38,712 bases of DNA from Bacillota bacterium (lineage in GTDB: Bacteria; Actinomycetota; Aquicultoria; Aquicultorales; Aquicultoraceae): positions 1 to 38,712 of the forward strand of contig JAIMBH010000023.1 of the NCBI GenBank assembly GCA_023511485.1, read 5' to 3'. Within the stretch, counting starts at the first letter, position 1. Every line of letters begins with the position of its first letter. The notes beneath the pieces were generated by a model that worked only from the letters and a program-made list of their open reading frames with translations, had not been told where the DNA came from and did no database searches. Below are positions 13,511-23,056 of this stretch, one piece after another. A program made the translations under genes and the position numbers.

Positions 13511-13807
13511 TTAAGCCGCGACATCGCATGGGTGGTTTAGTAAAACCAGAACTTGCCTCTCAACAAGCTCCTCGATGAATTCTTGTATCTCCGTGCGTAT
13601 TTGCTCCTCAGGTTTTTTGCTATGAGCCCGCATTTCCCTGACGATATCTTCTATCGCATGCTTTCCGTCTGCAAGCTCCCAGATTCTCGTCCCGGCAGCG
13701 TTTAAAACAAACAGCTTTCTATTTGTCGACTGGATTATTAGTGTTTGGTTATCGATAACACATGATGCCGAATCAGCGCCACGCAGTGGATAATAATCCA
13801 TGTTCAT
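13511..13807 (-). CDS. PqqD-like RiPP recognition element (RRE) protein
   Basis: This is a 98-residue stand-alone PqqD-fold protein. The typical core LFVLNAAGTRIWELADGKHAIEDIV at about 33-57 is followed by a helical segment. Such domains bind leader peptides of ribosomally made peptides and hand them to radical SAM enzymes. No precursor peptide or partner enzyme is adjacent; the nearest radical SAM gene in this window is the AhbD-like one. It starts at ATG 13807 with GGAGG about 12 nt upstream; an ATG two codons later is possible. Confidence 0.8.
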   Translation of the reverse strand: MNMDYYPLRGADSASCVIDNQTLIIQSTNRKLFVLNAAGTRIWELADGKHAIEDIVREMRAHSKKPEEQIRTEIQEFIEELVERQVLVLLNHPCDVAA

Positions 13808-14177
13808 GCTTCGTCTTTTCCTCCGTACCTAAACAGCAATGTTCGAAAGTCCATGCCAGCACAGGCCACCAGCGGTTCATGATGTCAAGCAAATTTGGTT
13901 GACAACTACATATACCATCTCCCATGCTTTAAAGCGATAACTTCGCGAAAGATACGCCGCTCTTACTTTTAATTCCCCATCCGCAAAAATTTAAAAGTGA
14001 TTTATTGAATTAAGCAATAAAAGAACAATCTCTCTATACTGAGTTTGTACCGAGCTTTCTAAGGCTCCCTACTCCACATTTGGCTAAGACTTTTTCTGCC
14101 AATCCCATTCCGGTTTTATTTGGCTATCTCTTGGGTAAAGAATGATATGTATGGGTTTTGCTTGGGGGTTGCTATTA
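13808..14177. other. Gene-free intergenic region with possible plus-strand promoter
   Basis: No gene is seen here. A TTGACA at 13899-13904 has a weak -10 (CATGCT) 18 bp downstream. A better -10, TATACT at 14035-14040, lacks a good -35. Either could serve the hypothetical gene at 14178. The divergent pqqD-like gene begins at 13807. Confidence 0.3.
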
Positions 14178-14906
14178 ATGGCTGATATCAAAGAATACAG
14201 AAAAAACGGCAAGCATTTTTGGCTTTGGATATTATCGACCTTGCTTCTATTTACTCCGCTATTTATAGCCTGGCAATATAGAGAGATGCTGCCGTTGGGA
14301 ATTGCTTACGTGGGCAGAGAAAATCTATCCGGTACGGTTGTCGAGAACTACCCTGGTAACCCTCCCGCAACAGGCATCACAGTCAAAATAGACGGCGAGT
14401 GGATAAAGCTGAGCAAACCAGGTAGCTTTATCGCCGAGAATCTTACCCTTGGCAGGCATCTTGTGACTATCGAGGGGCCAAGCTACGCGACACTCTCCGA
14501 AGATATCGAGATCAAGCGAGGTAAAAACGAAAGCAAGTTTAAGCTCTTGCTTACTCCGGTTGAGGCTGCAAACCGCTGGATGCAGACAAAAAAAGAAGAT
14601 AAACACGCGGAGACTTATTCCTTCTTCCACCCGGATGATAAGAAGCGGATCGACCCGGCAGGTTATGTGAAATTTAAAACCGATATTAAAAATAGATTTG
14701 GTGTTACAATAAAAAGCTATAAGGTAGATTCGCCAAGAGTATTTATGTCGTGGGAGCATCCCCGCACAAAACGAGTATATAGAAACGTGATTGCAATGAA
14801 GGCAAGTGCGGTGCTAGAGGCGCCTCAGGTGGGCTCCACTGAAACAGCGTGGACGATTTACGCGCAGAACCTAAATGGGCGCTGGGTGTTCTTCTCTACC
14901 GAGTAG
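14178..14906 (+). CDS. Hypothetical membrane-anchored protein
   Basis: I do not recognise a named family. The protein of about 242 residues has one strong N-terminal membrane segment (FWLWILSTLLLFTPLFIAW, about 15-33). A short beta-rich region follows (about 50-120) whose GTVVEN...GITVKIDGEW...LGRHLVTIEG pattern resembles PEGA or carboxypeptidase-regulatory folds. The C-terminal part from about residue 125 has an NTF2-like look (EAANRWMQTKKEDKHAE...NLNGRWVFF). ATG 14178 has GGGGG 9 nt upstream; an ATG at 14142 would add 12 residues but has no ribosome site. It is the only plus-strand gene between 1 and 22366. Confidence 0.7.
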   Translation: MADIKEYRKNGKHFWLWILSTLLLFTPLFIAWQYREMLPLGIAYVGRENLSGTVVENYPGNPPATGITVKIDGEWIKLSKPGSFIAENLTLGRHLVTIEGPSYATLSEDIEIKRGKNESKFKLLLTPVEAANRWMQTKKEDKHAETYSFFHPDDKKRIDPAGYVKFKTDIKNRFGVTIKSYKVDSPRVFMSWEHPRTKRVYRNVIAMKASAVLEAPQVGSTETAWTIYAQNLNGRWVFFSTE

Positions 14907-14920
14907 TTTTTCTTATCGGC

Positions 14921-14956
14921 ATAAAGCGACCGCCGGTTTCTCAGCGGCCGCTTTAT
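14921..14956. terminator. Hairpin terminator after the hypothetical gene
   Basis: ATAAAGCG (14921-14928) pairs with CGCTTTAT (14949-14956), and CCGC (14930-14933) with GCGG (14944-14947), with a single mismatch between them. It lies 15 bp after the stop at 14906. The flanks are T-rich on one side and A-rich on the other, so it may work in both directions. Confidence 0.65.
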
Positions 14957-14967
14957 TAAACCTGGGC

Positions 14968-15005
14968 CCGAAGCGTGAGGCCTGATTTAGGCTCTCACGC
15001 TTCGG
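14968..15005 (-). terminator. Strong hairpin after the 134-residue secreted protein gene
   Basis: CCGAAGCGTGAG (14968-14979) and CTCACGCTTCGG (14994-15005) form a perfect 12-bp stem, extended by GCCT/AGGC. It begins 8 bp after the minus-strand stop at 15014. Only a short T tract follows on that strand. It probably ends the minus-strand secreted-protein region. Confidence 0.65.
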
Positions 15006-15013
15006 CTTCCGTC

Positions 15014-15418
15014 TTAATCCTCTACCTCATTCTCTTGTTCTACTTCTGCCTTTTGCTCGATCTCGTTTTTGATTTTTTCATTTTCTGCTTTTGCGTCGCC
15101 GGACTTAGCTACCGCAAAGCCCTCATTCTTGACCTCGATCTTGACTTCGTTATCAGCTTTGCTATGGCAAGCATTTACATTGTTGTTGACGAAAACAACC
15201 GTTTTTGAAGCGTTGCCTATAGCATAAGCATCGCCGCTCTTTGCAATAGCTTTATTGTCAATCGATGCATCCTGATCTACCTTAGCTAGGTTTGCCTGGA
15301 TTTTAAATGTGATGGGTTTCTTTTTAAAGTGGTGGTTCCCATTCACGCTGGCGAACGCCATGCTCGTCATGCTGAGGACAAGTACGAACGCTAGCAATAT
15401 CACTAAAGCCTTCTTCAC
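15014..15418 (-). CDS. Small secreted repeat-motif protein (paralogue of the 848- and 277-residue proteins)
   Basis: A 134-residue protein with a clear Sec signal peptide (MKKALVILLAFVLVLSMTSMAFA, cut before SVNG). The mature part contains the two half-motifs SGDAYAIGNAS and GFAVAKSGDAKAENE that recur in the two larger proteins upstream. Its end is very acidic and helical (QKAEVEQENEVED). ATG 15418 has a perfect AAAGGAGGTGA ribosome site, suggesting high expression. No known function is recognised; it could be a minor subunit or nucleator of an extracellular polymer. Confidence 0.82.
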   Translation of the reverse strand: MKKALVILLAFVLVLSMTSMAFASVNGNHHFKKKPITFKIQANLAKVDQDASIDNKAIAKSGDAYAIGNASKTVVFVNNNVNACHSKADNEVKIEVKNEGFAVAKSGDAKAENEKIKNEIEQKAEVEQENEVED

Positions 15419-15842
15419 TAAGATTCACCTCCTTTCGCACTAGTAGTTTGCAATATTAAATTTGACTAAGACTAAAGCTGGATTAGTATCCTAGAATTGA
15501 CGGTAACTTGAACGGCTTTCTCTAGGACCGGGAAAAATTATTACCGTTAATCAAAAACTTCTAACATCTAAACCTAAATTCGTTATATTTTTTTGCCAAA
15601 CGGATGTTATATTTAATAACTGCAGGTAGATAAGGTTATTTAAATTATGATTGCCACTTACTACTAGTCAGTTAGAGATCGCTACTATTTTTATAACCAC
15701 TGGTCAGCAGCTTACGAATAATTCCGCTGAAAAGTAGAAAAATTATTTAATATTAGGCTCTCTGTCTGACTGCTTGAAATAGTCGGCAACATAATTCTAG
15801 TAGGCAATATTTACGGTCACACTTAAAGGTTTAAAAAGGTAA
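15419..15842. other. Gene-free intergenic region upstream of the 134-residue protein
   Basis: About 420 bp without a plausible gene. Near the gene, the minus strand carries TTCAAG and ATACTAAT about 17 bp apart (15490-15525), followed by CCAGCTTTAGTCTTAG. The word TTAGTCTTA also occurs upstream of the 848-residue gene. The rest is AT-rich and shows no repeat or structure that I can support. Confidence 0.4.
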
Positions 15843-15862
15843 GAGGGGCTATTCGGCCCCTC
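15843..15862 (-). terminator. Terminator after the 848-residue gene
   Basis: On the minus strand, GAGGGGC and GCCCCTC form a 7-bp GC stem with a 6-nt loop, followed by TTACCTTTTT. It lies about 37 bp after the stop at 15900. Confidence 0.75.
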
Positions 15863-15899
15863 ATTTATCTTGCTACGTGTAGGTTGTTGTTCCATTTTT

Positions 15900-18446
15900 T
15901 TATTTTCTAACTACGTATCGCCAAGGCTTTGCCTTTAGAGTGAATCCGACCCACGCAGCAAGCATAGCTGCAACTATAGCCCAGATCCACAAAGAAGACT
16001 CGGCGGCCGCATGCTGGCGCTGCCGGGCTGCCCCGGCTTTTGAGCCCGTGTAATCCTCGGCTTCTGCCGCACTTAGGTTAGCTCCGCCAGAGTCACCGGG
16101 GTTTCCACTATATAACGCATAGCCACCCGCGGCATTGTACTTCGTTTTTATTATCTTAGGCTTGTGTGGCCACAGGATGCCATCTGAGATAGCTACGCTG
16201 CCTGAAGTTGAATCACCGCCTCCCTGTTCTACGTCGTTTCTGATGTCTCCATCGCTTGAGCCATCATCACCGCTGGGCAGCGGCTCTCCTGCTCGAGTCA
16301 ATGCATCGCCTGTCATAGCGATAGCTGCTCCAAAATTAAGAACGCTGTTCTTAATTTTGTTTGAGCTATGCGAGTTGCCCCCTTCAACCGAGCTTGCATC
16401 TGCACTTGACCGCACATCTGATTCAGAACTACTTCCGGTTGCATCCGCATTGCCAGTACTTGCTACCGCATCCTGGCTCAACCGATTTCCGATGGAAATC
16501 GCCATCGCGTCTTCACTCGGATCCACTAAGGTAGTTTGCAACAGCGTACCGGTAAAAGAAACATTCGCATTAGACATGTTGTTCTCTGCGTTAGCATTAC
16601 CGGAAAAAGCCAGGCCGGTTCCCTGGTTTCCTACGCTATTGGTAGTCTCGTTCATCGCAGAAGCATCGCCATACGGATTAAAGATGCTTATGTCGGCATA
16701 CGCCTTCGCGCCCGAGTCGCTTTCAATTGTATTGGTTGATACCGATCCGACCGCAGTTGCATTGCCGGTCGTTGCGTTAGCCGATCCAGTAAGCAGCGCC
16801 CAAATGTCGTAGACAACTTCTATGATCACTTTGCCTTGCTCAATTATCGGCTCTGCTACCTTTACAACTGCATATATTGTAGGTGACAGGTTTACTATAT
16901 TGCCGTTCATTACATTCGTAGCATCAGCATCGCCAGTCGATGCTAGAGCTCCTCCCTGGTTTATTATAGAGTTGTCTACGTTGTTTGTCGCAACAGCTTG
17001 CCCATCCTGAGAACCATCATATCCGGTACCCGAGGATATCAATGGGGCATCTCCTACTGCCTTTGCCGTAGCGCTGCTGTCTATGGAATTAGAAGCCTCC
17101 AAACCTAAGGAATTTGCATTGCCTGTCTCAGCAGTCGCACTACCTTCGATCGACCCGCAGAAATTATAGATGACCTTGATCCAAACATCAGAGTCCGTTA
17201 TGTCGGGAAGCTCAAGCACGCTTGTTATATTCGGGGCGATGACCACGCTGTTGTTCTCCATCGTATTTGAAGCCGTAGCATTGCCAGACGCCGATAGCCC
17301 TTCCCCGCTATTAATTATCGTGTTGTTTGTATGGTTTAAAGCGTAAGCGCTCCCATCTGATACTGCTCCTCCGCCTGCCTTTAACGGGGCATCACCCACC
17401 GCTATGGCATCTGCATAACTATTTATATCATTGTCAACACTTGCACCAATAGCAGATGAGTCACCCGATGTTGCGCTTGCCATCCCTGATATCATTCCTA
17501 AGAAGTTGTAGACAATATCGATGACCACGTTGGCGTTTACAATGTCGCCGCAAAGCGCAATGATCGTGTTAACGATAGGGGCGATTAGTATCTCATTTCC
17601 GGTCATCGTGTTGGTGGCATTTGCGTCACCGGTAACAGCGCCTGCAGTGCCCACATTATCTATCGTGTTGCTGCCGGTATTTTGTGCAACTGCGTTTCCG
17701 CCATAAGACCCCCCGCCACCAATAAGAGGCGCGTCAGCCAACGCTTGGGCGCTCTGCGTGCTATCTATTGAGTTATTTGCAACTAGCCCGGTAGAGTCGC
17801 TACTGCCGGTTTTGGCATTGGCCGACCCAACTATGGCAGCTAAATAGTTATAAACCACATTTATGATGATATTCGCATCGGTTATATTGCCCAGGGTTTC
17901 AACTGTAACTGTTGTATCGGGCGATATCGTGGCTATGTTATTTTCCATTGTATTTAAGGACTGGGCCGCTCCGGAGCGGGAGTATGCATCGCCACTATTG
18001 CCAATTGTTTGTGATGCGGTATTGTCGGCAATGGCGTCACTGCTTCCTCCTCCCCAGCTCTCATGCGAGTCACCGGAAGCATTTGCATCCGACGTATTGG
18101 TTACGCTGTTTTCCGCTTGCGTACCTAATGAGTTGCTGTCACCAGATGTTGCCGACGACTTTCCACCAATGTTTACATCAACATTCTCCTTAGTTTCAAC
18201 CTGTAGGCCGTTGCTGGGAGGCTCCGGACAATTACTACCTGCACTAACAGCATCCCCTGAACCGCTACCCTCATTCTGGTTTGAAGCGGAATTATCGGCA
18301 GTCGGCCCTTGCCCCGTATCTTGGGTACTTACAACTGCCGTATCTTGCACTTGATTGTCTTGCGGATCTGCAAAAGCAGGCGCCCCAACAACGCCGAAAA
18401 CCATGCATATAACAACTAAAATGGATAGGAGTTTTCGTTTCAGCAC
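15900..18446 (-). CDS. Large secreted, membrane-anchored repeat protein
   Basis: An 848-residue protein of unknown function. It has a signal peptide (residues 1-26, ending APAFA) and a low-complexity Ser/Gly/Asp region. About six tandem repeats of 114-117 residues follow (roughly 80-700). Each repeat holds a hydrophobic segment (NANVVIDIVYNFLG type), GSANATTGNAxxxG, NSIDSxAxAxAxGDAPL, and GxAxAxTGDAxATNxMxxN. A linker and a C-terminal membrane segment with basic tail (SLWIWAIVAAMLAAWVGFTL, then KAKPWRYVVRK) end it. Alternating small residues suggest beta-strand stacking, as in beta-solenoids or functional amyloids, but this is inference. The start is GTG 18446 behind GGGGGTGG. It shares motifs with both flanking secreted proteins. 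Confidence 0.85.
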   Translation of the reverse strand: MLKRKLLSILVVICMVFGVVGAPAFADPQDNQVQDTAVVSTQDTGQGPTADNSASNQNEGSGSGDAVSAGSNCPEPPSNGLQVETKENVDVNIGGKSSATSGDSNSLGTQAENSVTNTSDANASGDSHESWGGGSSDAIADNTASQTIGNSGDAYSRSGAAQSLNTMENNIATISPDTTVTVETLGNITDANIIINVVYNYLAAIVGSANAKTGSSDSTGLVANNSIDSTQSAQALADAPLIGGGGSYGGNAVAQNTGSNTIDNVGTAGAVTGDANATNTMTGNEILIAPIVNTIIALCGDIVNANVVIDIVYNFLGMISGMASATSGDSSAIGASVDNDINSYADAIAVGDAPLKAGGGAVSDGSAYALNHTNNTIINSGEGLSASGNATASNTMENNSVVIAPNITSVLELPDITDSDVWIKVIYNFCGSIEGSATAETGNANSLGLEASNSIDSSATAKAVGDAPLISSGTGYDGSQDGQAVATNNVDNSIINQGGALASTGDADATNVMNGNIVNLSPTIYAVVKVAEPIIEQGKVIIEVVYDIWALLTGSANATTGNATAVGSVSTNTIESDSGAKAYADISIFNPYGDASAMNETTNSVGNQGTGLAFSGNANAENNMSNANVSFTGTLLQTTLVDPSEDAMAISIGNRLSQDAVASTGNADATGSSSESDVRSSADASSVEGGNSHSSNKIKNSVLNFGAAIAMTGDALTRAGEPLPSGDDGSSDGDIRNDVEQGGGDSTSGSVAISDGILWPHKPKIIKTKYNAAGGYALYSGNPGDSGGANLSAAEAEDYTGSKAGAARQRQHAAAESSLWIWAIVAAMLAAWVGFTLKAKPWRYVVRK

Positions 18447-18510
18447 CTTTCCACCCCCTTTCCTTAAGACTAAGCTGTTCAGTTTAATGCGCCCAAGGCT
18501 GGGTTAATAT
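18447..18510 (-). promoter_or_regulatory. Possible promoter of the 848-residue gene
   Basis: Downstream of the previous gene's terminator the minus strand has TATATTAACCCAGCC, which resembles ATACTAATCCAGC upstream of the 134-residue gene. TTAGTCTTA is also shared by the two upstream regions. The shared words suggest common control. A clear -35 was not found. Confidence 0.3.
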
Positions 18511-18517
18511 AGTGTAA

Positions 18518-18542
18518 GTGGGGAGGTTAAACCTCCCCACTT
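18518..18542 (-). terminator. Terminator after the 277-residue gene
   Basis: A perfect stem of AAGTGGGGAGG and CCTCCCCACTT around a short TTTAA loop lies 10 bp after the stop at 18553. It separates the 277- and 848-residue genes into different transcription units. Confidence 0.8.
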
Positions 18543-18552
18543 TAACCACCGT

Positions 18553-19386
18553 TTAATTTACCGCATAGCACTCTGAGAAATCCGCGCAAATGTTAATTGT
18601 TTTATCAGCGGTTGCGCTTCTTTGGATGTTGATATTTACACAATTTTCTGCATTATTAGTTGCAACAGCCTCGCCAGTTGTCGCGTCGGCCTGGCCATAG
18701 TTGGTCACCGTAATCGGATTCTCATTGGCTGCCTCACTGCCGTCGCAAGCTTCCGCTTTGTTCTTAGCATCAATATGGGTGATCGCATGGTTTCCAAAAG
18801 CGGTTGCATCACCTGTGTAGGCGTAAGTCCCGTTATCGAACTTCACTTTAATACAGATGTCACCGAAGATCTGAGCCGGGCAGCAATCGAAGATATCTGC
18901 AAGCCAGCTGAAGTCGTGACCGCCATCAACTTCATTTAAGCTTGCGTCTGAAACCCATGGTATAAACGGCGGGATATCATCGACATAGACATCAACATTC
19001 GCATTAGTATCTGCCGTATCGACTATATCCTCCTGCTCGCAGTTCTGAGCATTTTGCGTTGCAGTTGCAGGTTTTGTAAGCGCCGTAGCTCCGCCCTGGT
19101 TATCCACAACTATCGGATTATCATTTATAACCTCGGAGCACTCATTGGCTTTAGCCTCGTTATTGGTTTTAACTTGGGAGTTTGAAAAATTGCCCTTGGC
19201 TTCAGCATTGCCTGTATATGCTTCGGTGTTGTTATCAAAGCAGATATCCTTGAGTATGTCGCTGTTGATCTTGGCCCCGCTTTTGAAGAGATCGATTAGA
19301 TCACCTCTGCCTTCATAAGCGAAAGCAAGACCGCTCATACTCACTACCATAGCCAATGCAACTAATACCACAACTAATTTTTTCAT
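18553..19386 (-). CDS. Secreted cysteine-containing repeat protein (paralogue)
   Basis: A 277-residue protein with a Sec signal peptide (ends GLAFA, about residue 23). It has two repeats of about 110-115 residues, each with ICxxxxFDNxTxAYTGxAxAxGN, a Lys/Asn-rich segment, ENPIxVxNxGxAxATTGxAxATxNAxNC, and a polar Asp/Thr segment. Unlike the 848-residue relative it is cysteine-rich (paired positions in both repeats), so disulfides are possible. It has no C-terminal anchor. ATG 19386 has AAAGGAGGTGA upstream. Function unknown; the shared repeat motif and location link it to the other two secreted proteins. Confidence 0.83.
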   Translation of the reverse strand: MKKLVVVLVALAMVVSMSGLAFAYEGRGDLIDLFKSGAKINSDILKDICFDNNTEAYTGNAEAKGNFSNSQVKTNNEAKANECSEVINDNPIVVDNQGGATALTKPATATQNAQNCEQEDIVDTADTNANVDVYVDDIPPFIPWVSDASLNEVDGGHDFSWLADIFDCCPAQIFGDICIKVKFDNGTYAYTGDATAFGNHAITHIDAKNKAEACDGSEAANENPITVTNYGQADATTGEAVATNNAENCVNINIQRSATADKTINICADFSECYAVN

Positions 19387-19443
19387 TATCTTTCACCTCC
19401 TTTCGCTACTTACTAAATGTTTCTTGATATAGGCCAATCTTTT

Positions 19444-19472
19444 GACAAACTCGTACCTTAGGCAGGCACGAG
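19444..19472 (-). terminator. Hairpin after the receiver gene
   Basis: CTCGTGCCT and AGGTACGAG (one mismatch) form a hairpin at 19450-19472, followed by TTTGTC on the minus strand. It lies between the receiver gene stop and the 277-residue gene. Confidence 0.6.
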
Positions 19473-19476
19473 CGAA

Positions 19477-19842
19477 CTATCCCCTACGTGTTACCCTTTT
19501 TACCGTATCTACTATCTCTTTTGCGTCAGAGCCTTTTACGATATAAGCATCGATGAGCCTATCGTTGTCCCTGGATATATAGTCAAAAGAGTCGAATATC
19601 GACAGCACGATTAGTTTTACTGAGGGGTATGCATCCTTAACGGTTGAAAGAAAATCTACCTTGCCCTTTTCATCTGATCCTAACCCGATTAAAACAACAT
19701 CAGACGATGTTGCCTTAAGCAGAAGCGGGATTTGTTCTAGACTAGATGCTCTCCCTGTAACCTCGATACCATGCGAACCCAGCAGCTTGCTGAGAATATT
19801 TTGAAAGATGCTGTCACTGTCGATTACTAGAGCTTTTACCAT
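19477..19842 (-). CDS. Receiver-only protein lacking the phosphorylation aspartate (pseudo-receiver)
   Basis: A 121-residue CheY-like fold without an output domain. The acidic pocket (VIDSDS, 6-11), S81 (VLS) and K103 (IVKG) are present. At the phosphorylation position, however, the sequence is DVVLIGLGSDEKG, with Gly53 where Asp is normal; compare VMDIRLPDMDG in the NarL-type regulator next door. ATG 19842 has GAGAGG a few bases upstream; an ATG at 19875 has no ribosome site. It lies between the kinase/regulator pair and the secreted proteins. Likely a non-phosphorylated binding or anti-regulator protein, or one that uses the nearby Asp58. Confidence 0.8.
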   Translation of the reverse strand: MVKALVIDSDSIFQNILSKLLGSHGIEVTGRASSLEQIPLLLKATSSDVVLIGLGSDEKGKVDFLSTVKDAYPSVKLIVLSIFDSFDYISRDNDRLIDAYIVKGSDAKEIVDTVKRVTRRG

Positions 19843-19875
19843 TGAACCTCTCTTTTTAGCGCTTCCGTTTCGCAT

Positions 19876-20262
19876 GTCGCATGTTAACTAGTTGCAGCTT
19901 TGATCCTTGCTCCATGTTATGCGCTGGGCACAGATATTTCTTCCGCCTTTTGGATAGTATTGGACTGTACGAAAGGATAGGATTCTATGGGGGTGCGGGT
20001 AAGGTCCTGATGTGCCAAGGTCAATTAAAGCTGATAGCTGTCAGCTAGTGGGAGCAAGTAGCGAGGGCAAATATGTTTGATATTATTTAGATGCTTCGGC
20101 GCCGCTCATTGCTACCCTCTCGCCGCGGAGTTTACCCTGAGCGAAGTCGAAAGGGCCTGGGATGACATCTATTGCTGCCTGCTGCCTTTTAGCAGCCCTA
20201 AAGAGCTGCACTACGTTTTTTATAAACCATGGACCCTGGTCCCCGATCCCTAGACCCTTTTC
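19876..20262. other. Gene-free intergenic region with dispersed repeats
   Basis: No gene is seen. It holds an AGCTGATAGCTGTCAGCT tract at 20028-20048 (same family as 4637-4712). A word of the CCCTGAGCGAAGTCGAAAGGG type lies at about 20131-20151, whose ends are inverted (CCCT/AGGG) and which looks like a second dispersed repeat. Confidence 0.5.
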
Positions 20263-20892
20263 TTATGCGACGACGGAGTCGTAAGCAAGTTTGGCCGCCT
20301 CGACTCGGTTTTTTACGCCAAGCTTGTGGAATATGTTTCGAATATGGAATTTGACCGTGCTTTCTGAAACAAAGAGTTTTTGGCTTATCTCGACGTTTGT
20401 GGCTCCGTTAGAGAGGAGTTTCCAGACTTCCCGCTCTCTTGGAGTTAAACGATCGCTGCCCCTTATGCAATGCAAACCAATCGGTATTATATTGCGCGTA
20501 AGTTGAGGCGATATTGGGTTTAACCCGCCTGCTACCTGCCGTACAGCTTCTACTAACTCTACTGCATCTATACTTTTTAGGACGTATCCATCAGCTCCGC
20601 TTTCAAATGCCTTGATGACATACCGCTTGTCGTCAAACCCGGAGAAGATCAACACCTTTGTTTCCTTATGTCTATCCCTAATACGCTTCATAGTAGTTAT
20701 GCCATCCATATCAGGAAGCCTTATATCCATAACAATAACATCCGGCATAATATCATCGGCCAACACCACTGCCTGTTTGCCGGTGGATGCTTCACCGATT
20801 ACCTCAATGCCGTTGCATCTCTCAAGAACTTTCCTAATACTCATCTGCATAAGCGGATGGTCTTCGACAATCATCACTCGCAAATTACTCAT
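20263..20892 (-). CDS. NarL/FixJ-family response regulator (LuxR-type HTH)
   Basis: A 209-residue DNA-binding response regulator. The receiver domain has the phosphorylation site D56 (VIVMDIRLP) and K105 (YVLKSIDA). The C-terminal LuxR helix-turn-helix spans about 148-205 (LTPREREVWKLLSNGATNVEISQKL, then VKFHIRNIFHKLGV). It is encoded 39 bp downstream of the sensor kinase, so the two form a two-component pair. Its targets are unknown; the secreted repeat genes just downstream on the same strand are obvious candidates. Confidence 0.95.
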   Translation of the reverse strand: MSNLRVMIVEDHPLMQMSIRKVLERCNGIEVIGEASTGKQAVVLADDIMPDVIVMDIRLPDMDGITTMKRIRDRHKETKVLIFSGFDDKRYVIKAFESGADGYVLKSIDAVELVEAVRQVAGGLNPISPQLTRNIIPIGLHCIRGSDRLTPREREVWKLLSNGATNVEISQKLFVSESTVKFHIRNIFHKLGVKNRVEAAKLAYDSVVA

Positions 20893-20931
20893 AATTTGCC
20901 TCCTGTGGCAAATGCTGCTTCAAGATACTTC

Positions 20932-22062
20932 CTATAGCGGTATGGTAAATTCAATACAGGTACCTTTACCAGGAGTGCTCTTGATATCAAATATGCCCAG
21001 AAATTGCTCAACCCGGTCTCTCATGCTTATTAAACCGTATCCTTCAAGGTCTTTTACCTGCTTATCTAAGTCACAGATATTAAAGCCAACCCCATTGTCA
21101 CTGATGCTGCAGGATACCCTGGAATCGTCAAAAGTCATGCTTATCACAATGCGAGTTGCCTTTGCATGCTTACTAATGTTGTTTAGTGCTTCCTGGATAA
21201 CCCTGAATAAGCTGACCTGAATTTCGGCAGGGATATCCCGCCCCTTTGAGTGCACAGTAAAATCCACCTCGATACCAGTTTTAACCGAGAACTGGCGGAT
21301 GTGCTCCTTAATCCTTGCTATCAGGGCTTGCCTTGAAACGCTCTGGGGCTTGAGTGAATATATTGACATGCGAAGCTCATGAAGGCATTGGCTAAGTATT
21401 GTCTTTAACGACTGCAGCTCTCTTTTAGCCTCTGCCGAGCCTACCAAGTCTTCCAAAATGTCTGTTTGAAGTATAGCGCTTGACACCGCCTGGGCGGGAC
21501 CATCGTGAAGATCAAAAGCAAGTCTCTGGCGATCCCTTTCGAGAAGACCGTTGACATCGCGAAGCATCTTTCTAACGCGGCCTTTCTCCAGCTCCAGTTT
21601 TCTAACTTGATCAAAAAGAACTAATGTTAAGTCGGCGGCGATTGAGCGATCCAAAATCCTTATGAGCAGCTCAGCCTCTTTTTCGACAACTTGCCGAACC
21701 CAAAAATCAAGGTCTAAAGACTTTATCTCATCTTTAAAGGCCTTAAGTAACCCATCCAATATAGCTTGGTACTTTTCCTTATCAAGCAGAGCTGCTTGTC
21801 GCGATTCATTAGCCTGCACGAATTCCTGTATCAAGTTCTCTTTAGGCTTAGACTGAGAATCAATGTTTGAGATGATATCTTTTGTTCTTTGTTTAAAGTA
21901 GTTAAGCAATTCGTCGCTTGCCGTTCCGCTAAGCGACATTGACAACCTTCGGAACGCAGATTCGGATACCGCTTTTAGCTTTAACATGGATTCGTCTGAA
22001 GTAAAAATCATTTGTCCATTGATGTTAGTATTTGCTTTCCCTTGCGTCCATTGTTTACCCAT
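20932..22062 (-). CDS. Soluble DegS/NreB-type sensor histidine kinase
   Basis: A 376-residue HisKA_3-family kinase. The phospho-accepting H186 lies in RQRLAFDLHDGPAQAVS, and the HATPase_c domain has the N box (VIQEALNNISKHAKA), DNGVGFN and GYGLISMRDRVE. No membrane segment is present. The N-terminal 170 residues are mostly helical and coiled and do not match a PAS or GAF domain by eye, so it probably senses an intracellular signal. ATG 22062 has a weak ribosome site. It is divergent from rex across a 304-bp gap. Confidence 0.93.
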   Translation of the reverse strand: MGKQWTQGKANTNINGQMIFTSDESMLKLKAVSESAFRRLSMSLSGTASDELLNYFKQRTKDIISNIDSQSKPKENLIQEFVQANESRQAALLDKEKYQAILDGLLKAFKDEIKSLDLDFWVRQVVEKEAELLIRILDRSIAADLTLVLFDQVRKLELEKGRVRKMLRDVNGLLERDRQRLAFDLHDGPAQAVSSAILQTDILEDLVGSAEAKRELQSLKTILSQCLHELRMSIYSLKPQSVSRQALIARIKEHIRQFSVKTGIEVDFTVHSKGRDIPAEIQVSLFRVIQEALNNISKHAKATRIVISMTFDDSRVSCSISDNGVGFNICDLDKQVKDLEGYGLISMRDRVEQFLGIFDIKSTPGKGTCIEFTIPL

Positions 22063-22366: not shown

Positions 22367-23056
22367 GTGAACGAGATACCTGAAGGCGTAATTGAACGGC
22401 TATCAACGTATCTAAATTGCTTAATAAAGTTTCAGCAAAGCGGAATTGAAACCGTCTCTTCAGAGCGGTTAGGTGCGTCTGCTGGCGTCAATCCAGCTGA
22501 AGTGCGAAGGGATTTTACATACTTCGGCACGTTTGGCAAAAAAGGTGTCGGCTATGGCGTTGAAACGCTAATCCAGCATATCCAGAGAATACTGGGCTCG
22601 GATGAGCCGCATAAAATCGCGCTTGTTGGGGCAGGTAATCTAGGATCTGCTATTGCTTCATATGAAGGTCTTCTGCAGCACGGCTTTCATATTTCCGCTA
22701 TCTTTGACAAAGACCCTGATAAGATAGGTAAAACAATTCAGCACCTTGAGGTATTTGATATCAAGGATTTGCCGCAGATTGTTAAAAATGCAAACATCGA
22801 GATCGGCATAATCGCAGTACCGCCAGCCGCCGCGCAACAGGCAGCCGATTTGCTTGTAGAGGGTGGAGTGCACGTTATATTAAACTATACACCAGCGCTC
22901 ATAAGCGTTCCGGCTGGGGTGCAGCTGCACAATACCGACCCGGTCCAGCAGCTACTGCATACGCTTTACTACCTCTCTTCGGCCGGGGATAAAGCGATAC
23001 TTAGAAAAAAGCGCAACCCTAACGGGAGCAAGAACCATATCAAAACGTCACGGTAA
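22367..23056 (+). CDS. rex: Redox-sensing transcriptional repressor Rex
   Basis: NADH/NAD-responsive repressor controlling fermentative and respiratory genes in Gram-positive bacteria. An N-terminal winged helix (about 1-80, with NPAEVRRDFTYFGTFGKKGVGYGV) is followed by a Rossmann domain with VGAGNLGSAIASY (GAGNLG at 88-93). The 229-residue length is slightly above usual owing to a basic tail. GTG 22367 has AGGAG 6 nt upstream. It is divergent from the two-component kinase gene. Confidence 0.95.
   Translation: MNEIPEGVIERLSTYLNCLIKFQQSGIETVSSERLGASAGVNPAEVRRDFTYFGTFGKKGVGYGVETLIQHIQRILGSDEPHKIALVGAGNLGSAIASYEGLLQHGFHISAIFDKDPDKIGKTIQHLEVFDIKDLPQIVKNANIEIGIIAVPPAAAQQAADLLVEGGVHVILNYTPALISVPAGVQLHNTDPVQQLLHTLYYLSSAGDKAILRKKRNPNGSKNHIKTSR

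Follow-up and report, generated by a model that had tools for sequence, protein, structure and literature searches.

Streptomyces chaplins and rodlins are secreted beta-rich coat proteins of actinobacteria and occur in long and short forms. Secreted, repeat-built proteins are also represented by Pseudomonas FapC, and the Gram-positive surface carries adhesins of the LPXTG/SdrD type. In the Bacillus-type matrix fibre, TasA/CalY proteins (camelysin, PF12389) are accompanied by SipW, and it has been reported that TasA, a secreted matrix protein, forms fibres via donor-strand exchange (PMC9674648). In the curli proteins CsgA and CsgB, every other residue of a strand is small and points inward, Asn residues form columns, and the turns that join the strands contain Gly (PMC10192328). 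The locus described here, which lies in a window of 38,712 nucleotides (the whole stretch of DNA that was analysed), encodes secreted proteins sharing a repeat of which the literature searched gave no description, and in which little was found on Aquicultor surfaces. We consider it on balance probable that these beta-rich repeat proteins form a matrix, fibre or coat outside the cells of Aquicultor-type Actinomycetota, where relatives have the TasA/SipW module instead.

The first-pass annotation had pointed to three neighbouring reading frames on one strand, of 134, 848 and 277 aa between positions 15014 and 19386, and both coordinates and lengths matched exactly, the strand being the minus strand (Table 1). 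The N-terminal signal peptides it had proposed were borne out by a hydrophobic N-terminus on each protein, and a C-terminal membrane segment was found, as it had stated, only on the 848-aa protein (hydrophobic from about residue 819, then a basic tail), the other two being free. Although the transmembrane segment and basic tail are present, LPXTG is absent from the 848-aa sequence, which thus departs from the sortase-anchored pattern; sortases are present in the genome. In a relative (G004), the large protein has a Lys/Arg-rich tail at its end but no clear transmembrane segment there, so the C-terminal anchor is not universal. The 277-aa protein has orthologues in five relatives, with extra copies in two of these. 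The functional locus is wider than the three genes, covering about 14142-22062, and no RNA element of Rfam was found in the window or the locus. A surface location of the repeat proteins is supported by the signal peptides, the transmembrane tail and the LPXTG and TasA/SipW neighbours.

Table 1 Features of the repeat-protein locus and its edges (positions in the window)
Feature	Position	Strand	Remarks
PqqD-like gene	13511..13807	-	One cassette edge; adjoins Rex in G001 and G002
Membrane protein, CarboxypepD_reg/PEGA-like domain	14142..14906	+	Divergently transcribed; conserved cassette boundary
134-aa secreted protein	15014..15418	-	Signal peptide and one repeat unit, without anchor
848-aa large surface protein	15900..18446	-	Signal peptide, six ~112-aa units (residues 93-720, sixth partial), Gly/Ser linker, C-terminal TM segment, basic tail
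277-aa secreted protein	18553..19386	-	Signal peptide and two repeat units, without anchor
Receiver-only response regulator	19477..19875	-	Pfam Response_reg; directly upstream of 277-aa gene; neighbour kept in five relatives
Interval without gene here	19876..20262		Five relatives carry a gene for an LPXTG (LPFTG) Thr-rich surface protein there
NarL/LuxR-type response regulator	20263..20892	-	Response_reg and GerE; conserved neighbour
HisKA_3 histidine kinase	20932..22062	-	No predicted TM segment; conserved cassette member
Rex gene	22367..23056	+	Other cassette edge

A unit of about 112 aa is common to the three proteins. By an iterated unit profile, which was seeded from the 848-aa protein and extended with related loci, contiguous units were located at residues 93-204, 205-318, 319-432, 433-551 and 552-659 of the 848-aa protein, followed by a partial one at 656-720, and further units at residues 50-138 and 183-273 of the 277-aa protein and 53-134 of the 134-aa protein. 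The earlier count of about six units in the large protein therefore stands as five complete units and a partial sixth, but their spacing is 108-119 aa instead of the 114-117 given before. The half-motif pair had been counted once in the 134-aa and twice in the 277-aa protein, which agrees with one and two units, respectively, with the precision that the 134-aa unit is complete and carries both half-motifs. A non-circular profile, made of four units of the 848-aa protein only, recovered the 134-aa protein at 24.8 bits (E 5e-7) and the 277-aa protein at 20.0 bits (E 1.5e-5), while the best of 900 composition-matched shuffles reached 6.9 bits. The shared paired half-motifs proved to be a true internal duplication, with half A and half B, each of about 55 aa, aligned by HHalign at P = 4e-5. 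Elsewhere in the 2.37 Mb genome the unit was not found, even at E <= 10. Since Tandem Repeats Finder detected no repeat at the DNA level, the units have diverged and do not represent a recent expansion.

Across 55 units, conservation alternates every residue on either side of (S/T)G(D/N). Counted from the turn G, the values were mostly 3-4 bits at -1 (S/T), -3 (A), -5 (A), +2 (A), +4 (A) and +6 (G/N) and about 1 bit at the positions in between, and in the second half-unit the alternation runs on as G at -7, N at -9 and I/V at -11. This alternation, as read from the aligned sequences, fits two beta-strands and a tight turn, in which small residues and Asn would make up a single buried face. Extra xGx matches at residues 151, 320, 553 and 610 of the 848-aa protein were rejected as regex artefacts, because they lie within strands and the true half-motif follows 5-7 residues downstream. 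An alignment with shifted repeat rows fell back into the natural register and was left unused.

No known family had been recognised in the first-pass annotation, and this was upheld, since neither sequence (Pfam, NCBIfam, PDB) nor fold gave a match; a sequence profile against PDB chains returned nothing at E <= 10. Like TasA/CalY, the repeat proteins are secreted, occur as several paralogues per locus and occupy the cassette slot behind a two-component system that holds TasA in sister genomes. However, they did not match PF12389 or the TasA model, the SipW-type signal peptide TIGR04088 was not detected in the window proteins and no SipW-like reading frame was found in the window cassette; tandem repeats and a large membrane-anchored member set them further apart. 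With curli they share the features named above, but the unit is about 112 aa (2 x 55) against about 23 aa, Gln columns are missing, the curlin Pfam profile gave no match at E <= 1 in the window proteins or at E <= 0.1 in any of the 55 units, and the N-x5-Q pattern, which recurs every ~23 residues in curli, was matched once per window protein. The repeat also differs from that of chaplins and rodlins, with no chaplin domain match in Pfam or NCBIfam. The likeness to curli or chaplins that had been suggested was not borne out as family membership by the curlin and chaplin profiles. Unlike FapC, which they resemble in being secreted and repeat-built, the window proteins match neither FapC nor any solved chain by sequence, and their cassette contains no Fap genes. 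A sortase-signal protein within the cassettes of relatives recalls LPXTG/SdrD-type adhesins, but the repeat proteins themselves have neither an LPXTG signal nor an SdrD_B domain. The protein family is absent from the libraries searched, whereas secreted beta-rich matrix proteins controlled by a two-component system are already known as a kind.

Residues 88-725 of the 848-aa protein, modelled by AlphaFold2 together with four homologues, were predicted as all-beta (mean pLDDT 79, pTM 0.70); pLDDT exceeded 95 in the strand cores, whereas loops at Gly-rich insertions had low confidence. All 11 genuine half-motif turns matching S/T-G-x in the modelled region sit at breaks between predicted strands; in this model, the (S/T)G(D/N) motif is a strand-strand turn. 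For the 277-aa protein (five sequences), AlphaFold gave no confident model (pLDDT 43), and a self-standing fold of the proposed subunit accordingly has no model support. Searching the 848-aa model against the PDB with Foldseek returned nothing significant (best E 0.085 with prob 0.01; prob <= 0.06 overall). Of the stacked beta-strands suggested at first, the strand content was supported by the all-beta prediction for the large protein, and no beta-solenoid or fibre matched significantly; the strand pairs may be hairpins or stacked arches, and the unit is best described as a predicted 2 x 55-aa all-beta repeat without a match to any solved fold.

These results bear on a sharper version of our explanation, namely that the proteins form a functional amyloid or beta-solenoid fibre by a curli/Fap-type mechanism, in which arch-shaped repeats stack with Asn/Ser ladders. 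The motif G-x-A-x-A-x-(S/T)-G-(D/N)-A-x-A-x-N resembles the curlin pattern N-x-psi-x-psi-x-Q plus an X-G-X-X arc (PMC10192328), and the insignificant PDB matches are nearly all beta-solenoids, with CsgA first and FapC and chains of the S-layer protein RsaA among them. However, the best Foldseek match has E 0.085 with prob 0.01, the predicted strands of 12-20 residues are longer than those of curli, and the curlin pattern and profile results given above do not fit. We therefore regard the amyloid version as rather unlikely.

Among 396 genomes sampled across the phylum, the unit was present in nine, and all nine belong to one class. Seven come from the window's family, which is represented by 11 genomes, and two other families contribute a single genome each. 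Named relatives include Candidatus Aquicultor primus, A. secundus and other Aquicultor-type MAGs. The co-occurrence of sets in related genomes, proposed as a check in the first-pass annotation, was confirmed, as each of the nine encodes a single large protein together with one or more small secreted paralogues. In the two other families the sets consist of a 600-aa protein with paralogues of 165 and 168 aa (L027), and of a large protein split over two overlapping contigs with one of 179 aa (L118/L028). No relatives of the 848-aa protein were found in viral contigs, plasmids or phages, which gives no support to an origin from a phage or plasmid; Foldseek against viral models likewise gave nothing significant.

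The constant set composition is relevant to the main rival explanation, a non-polymeric adhesin, in which the large anchored protein would be a stiff stalk displaying binding surfaces and the small proteins soluble partners or decoys. Such a function would agree with one large anchored protein per set, with the low-confidence and probably flexible loops between the strands, with the He_PIG Ig-like domain that has been added to the L027 homologue, and with an SdrD_B/LPXTG adhesin-like protein in the L118 cassette. However, small secreted paralogues of the same unit in all nine genomes would be superfluous for a simple adhesin, the repeat proteins have no recognisable binding domain, and TasA fibre genes stand at the same slot in relatives. 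We regard an adhesin as rather unlikely, and as less probable than the matrix, fibre or coat that we propose.

The repeat genes form part of a cassette, whose order in relatives is Rex, histidine kinase (HK), LuxR-type response regulator (RR), LPXTG (LPFTG) protein, receiver (REC), 270-aa repeat protein, large repeat protein, small repeat protein, divergent PEGA-like gene, PqqD and Ccm genes; in some relatives, parts are lacking or lie on separate contigs. The window follows this order except for the LPXTG gene, which was not found anywhere in its genome. At 20132-20154, inside the interval that holds this gene in relatives, the window carries the repeat-like sequence CCTTTCGACTTCGCTCAGGGTAA in a single copy, which was not seen at the loci of other genomes. 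The PEGA-like domain passed the Pfam cut-off in the L027 homologue but scored below it in the window. Eight of the nine repeat-bearing genomes (all but G005) and four of the 27 others carry the PEGA-like gene. G004 and G006-G010 have an orthologue of HK, whereas G005 and G001-G003, the latter being the three family members without repeats, have none; these counts are not independent, because the genomes are related. In G006, HK and RR lie on a 3.2-kb contig that ends there, and in G005 a large and small pair lies at another location without the regulators.

In G001 and G002, which belong to the window's own genus, Rex is directly beside PqqD and the whole cassette is missing as one block, leaving a clean empty site. 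G003 has no cassette either, but between Rex and PqqD the last 24 codons of RR remain (83% identical; L106:1452-1523), and this C-terminal stub is a relic which indicates that the cassette was deleted there. The adjacency of HK, RR, REC and surface genes is kept across families, as in a two-component-regulated surface cassette, and the cassette is conserved in outline across three families of one actinobacterial class. Several variations were seen at its edges. The window Rex is inverted, pointing away from HK and toward MTAP, while in the relatives examined Rex is co-directional with MTAP and with the gene that follows (HK or PqqD). Between Rex and the cassette, G003, G004 and G007-G010 have a small TatA-like gene (for example L106:1119-1289, L020:7342-7485 and L023:15669-15821), which is lacking in the window, in G001 and G002 and on the Rex contig of G005. 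Some relatives have two PqqD-like genes and a DegT-type aminotransferase-like gene beside the cassette (L023:5213-7116, L024:5813-7761), where the window has one PqqD-like gene only.

The repeat proteins might also be components of an S-layer, sheath or cell-wall coat, assembling in two dimensions instead of as a fibre. Extracellular beta repeats rich in Asn/Asp/Ser/Gly/Ala, the RsaA chains in the Foldseek list and the surface-protein neighbours would suit such a component, but no SLH or other S-layer anchoring domain was found, and the patchy distribution together with two-component control would be unusual for a constitutive S-layer. We consider this explanation very unlikely.

The slot after the receiver gene is occupied in sister genomes by two TasA/camelysin genes and SipW, a correspondence of context and not of homology. 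For example, G020 has the order S8 protease, GAF histidine kinase, RR, LPYTG protein, RR, receiver, two TasA/camelysin genes and SipW. Its orthologues in G028 are 63% (S8 protease), 69% (HK), 72-74% (RRs) and 73% (receiver) identical, and there the receiver is followed by an SdrD_B/LPYTG protein and then the repeat genes. Similarly, in two species of one genus (g10), a U32 peptidase, HK, RR and receiver are followed in G014 by a second RR, two TasA genes and SipW, and in G025 by two small repeat genes and a large one; the U32 peptidases are 89%, HKs 65%, RRs 79% and receivers 90% identical. G019 and G024, of the same family as G028, also have HK, RR and REC followed by two TasA genes and SipW, and among the cassettes compared these two hold the closest RR (48-50% identity) and HK to those of the window outside its family.

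A search with PF12389 found no TasA-family gene in G000, G025 or G028 and at least two in the cassettes of G014, G019, G020 and G024, all of which lack the repeats. Because six repeat-bearing genomes of the Aquicultor family also have a weak TasA-like gene elsewhere, the mutual exclusion of TasA and repeats applies to the cassette slot and not to the whole genome. TasA/camelysin and SipW cassettes under HisKA_3 kinases and LuxR-type regulators, SipW adjoining the TasA genes in each, were observed in an uncultured actinobacterial class at L123:6680-14147, L145:7147-12667, L146:6813-12768 and L147:5174-12108, and G008 has additional TasA-like and SipW-like sets outside its repeat cassette (L148:7386-10301, L149:5253-6539). 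What the slot exchange demonstrates is that the two systems share a regulatory context, and equal biochemistry does not follow from it. The exchange of TasA for repeat genes behind orthologous regulators is the best evidence that supports a matrix or fibre role.

The first-pass annotation had taken an anchored scaffold with soluble paralogues as the layout of a fibre or sheath. This layout is constant in all nine genomes, and the TasA exchange supports a matrix or fibre role, while polymerisation and an amyloid or beta-solenoid structure are putative. From the observed secretion signals and synteny we infer a matrix that may polymerise, possibly with amyloid character. A signal from a surface or from the community would induce the cassette through the two-component system. 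The small free proteins would then serve as subunits, stacking by way of their sheets of small residues, and polymer growth would start from the large protein, which is membrane-anchored in most cases, as base or nucleator. The LPXTG protein, where present, may be an additional wall-attached part.

The locus adds a repeat family without match in the family and structure libraries searched, which is tied by synteny to a known matrix-fibre system, and its function could be tested with four or five genes. We put forward tentatively, as possible but somewhat doubtful, that the 2 x 55-aa beta-repeat represents a new class of polymerising surface protein, and that it and TasA fibres have changed places on two or more occasions in one cassette of an uncultured actinobacterial class, so that fibres would be swapped as modules under constant control. 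The exchange between TasA and repeat genes offers a natural comparison for the question of whether matrix fibres are interchangeable modules.
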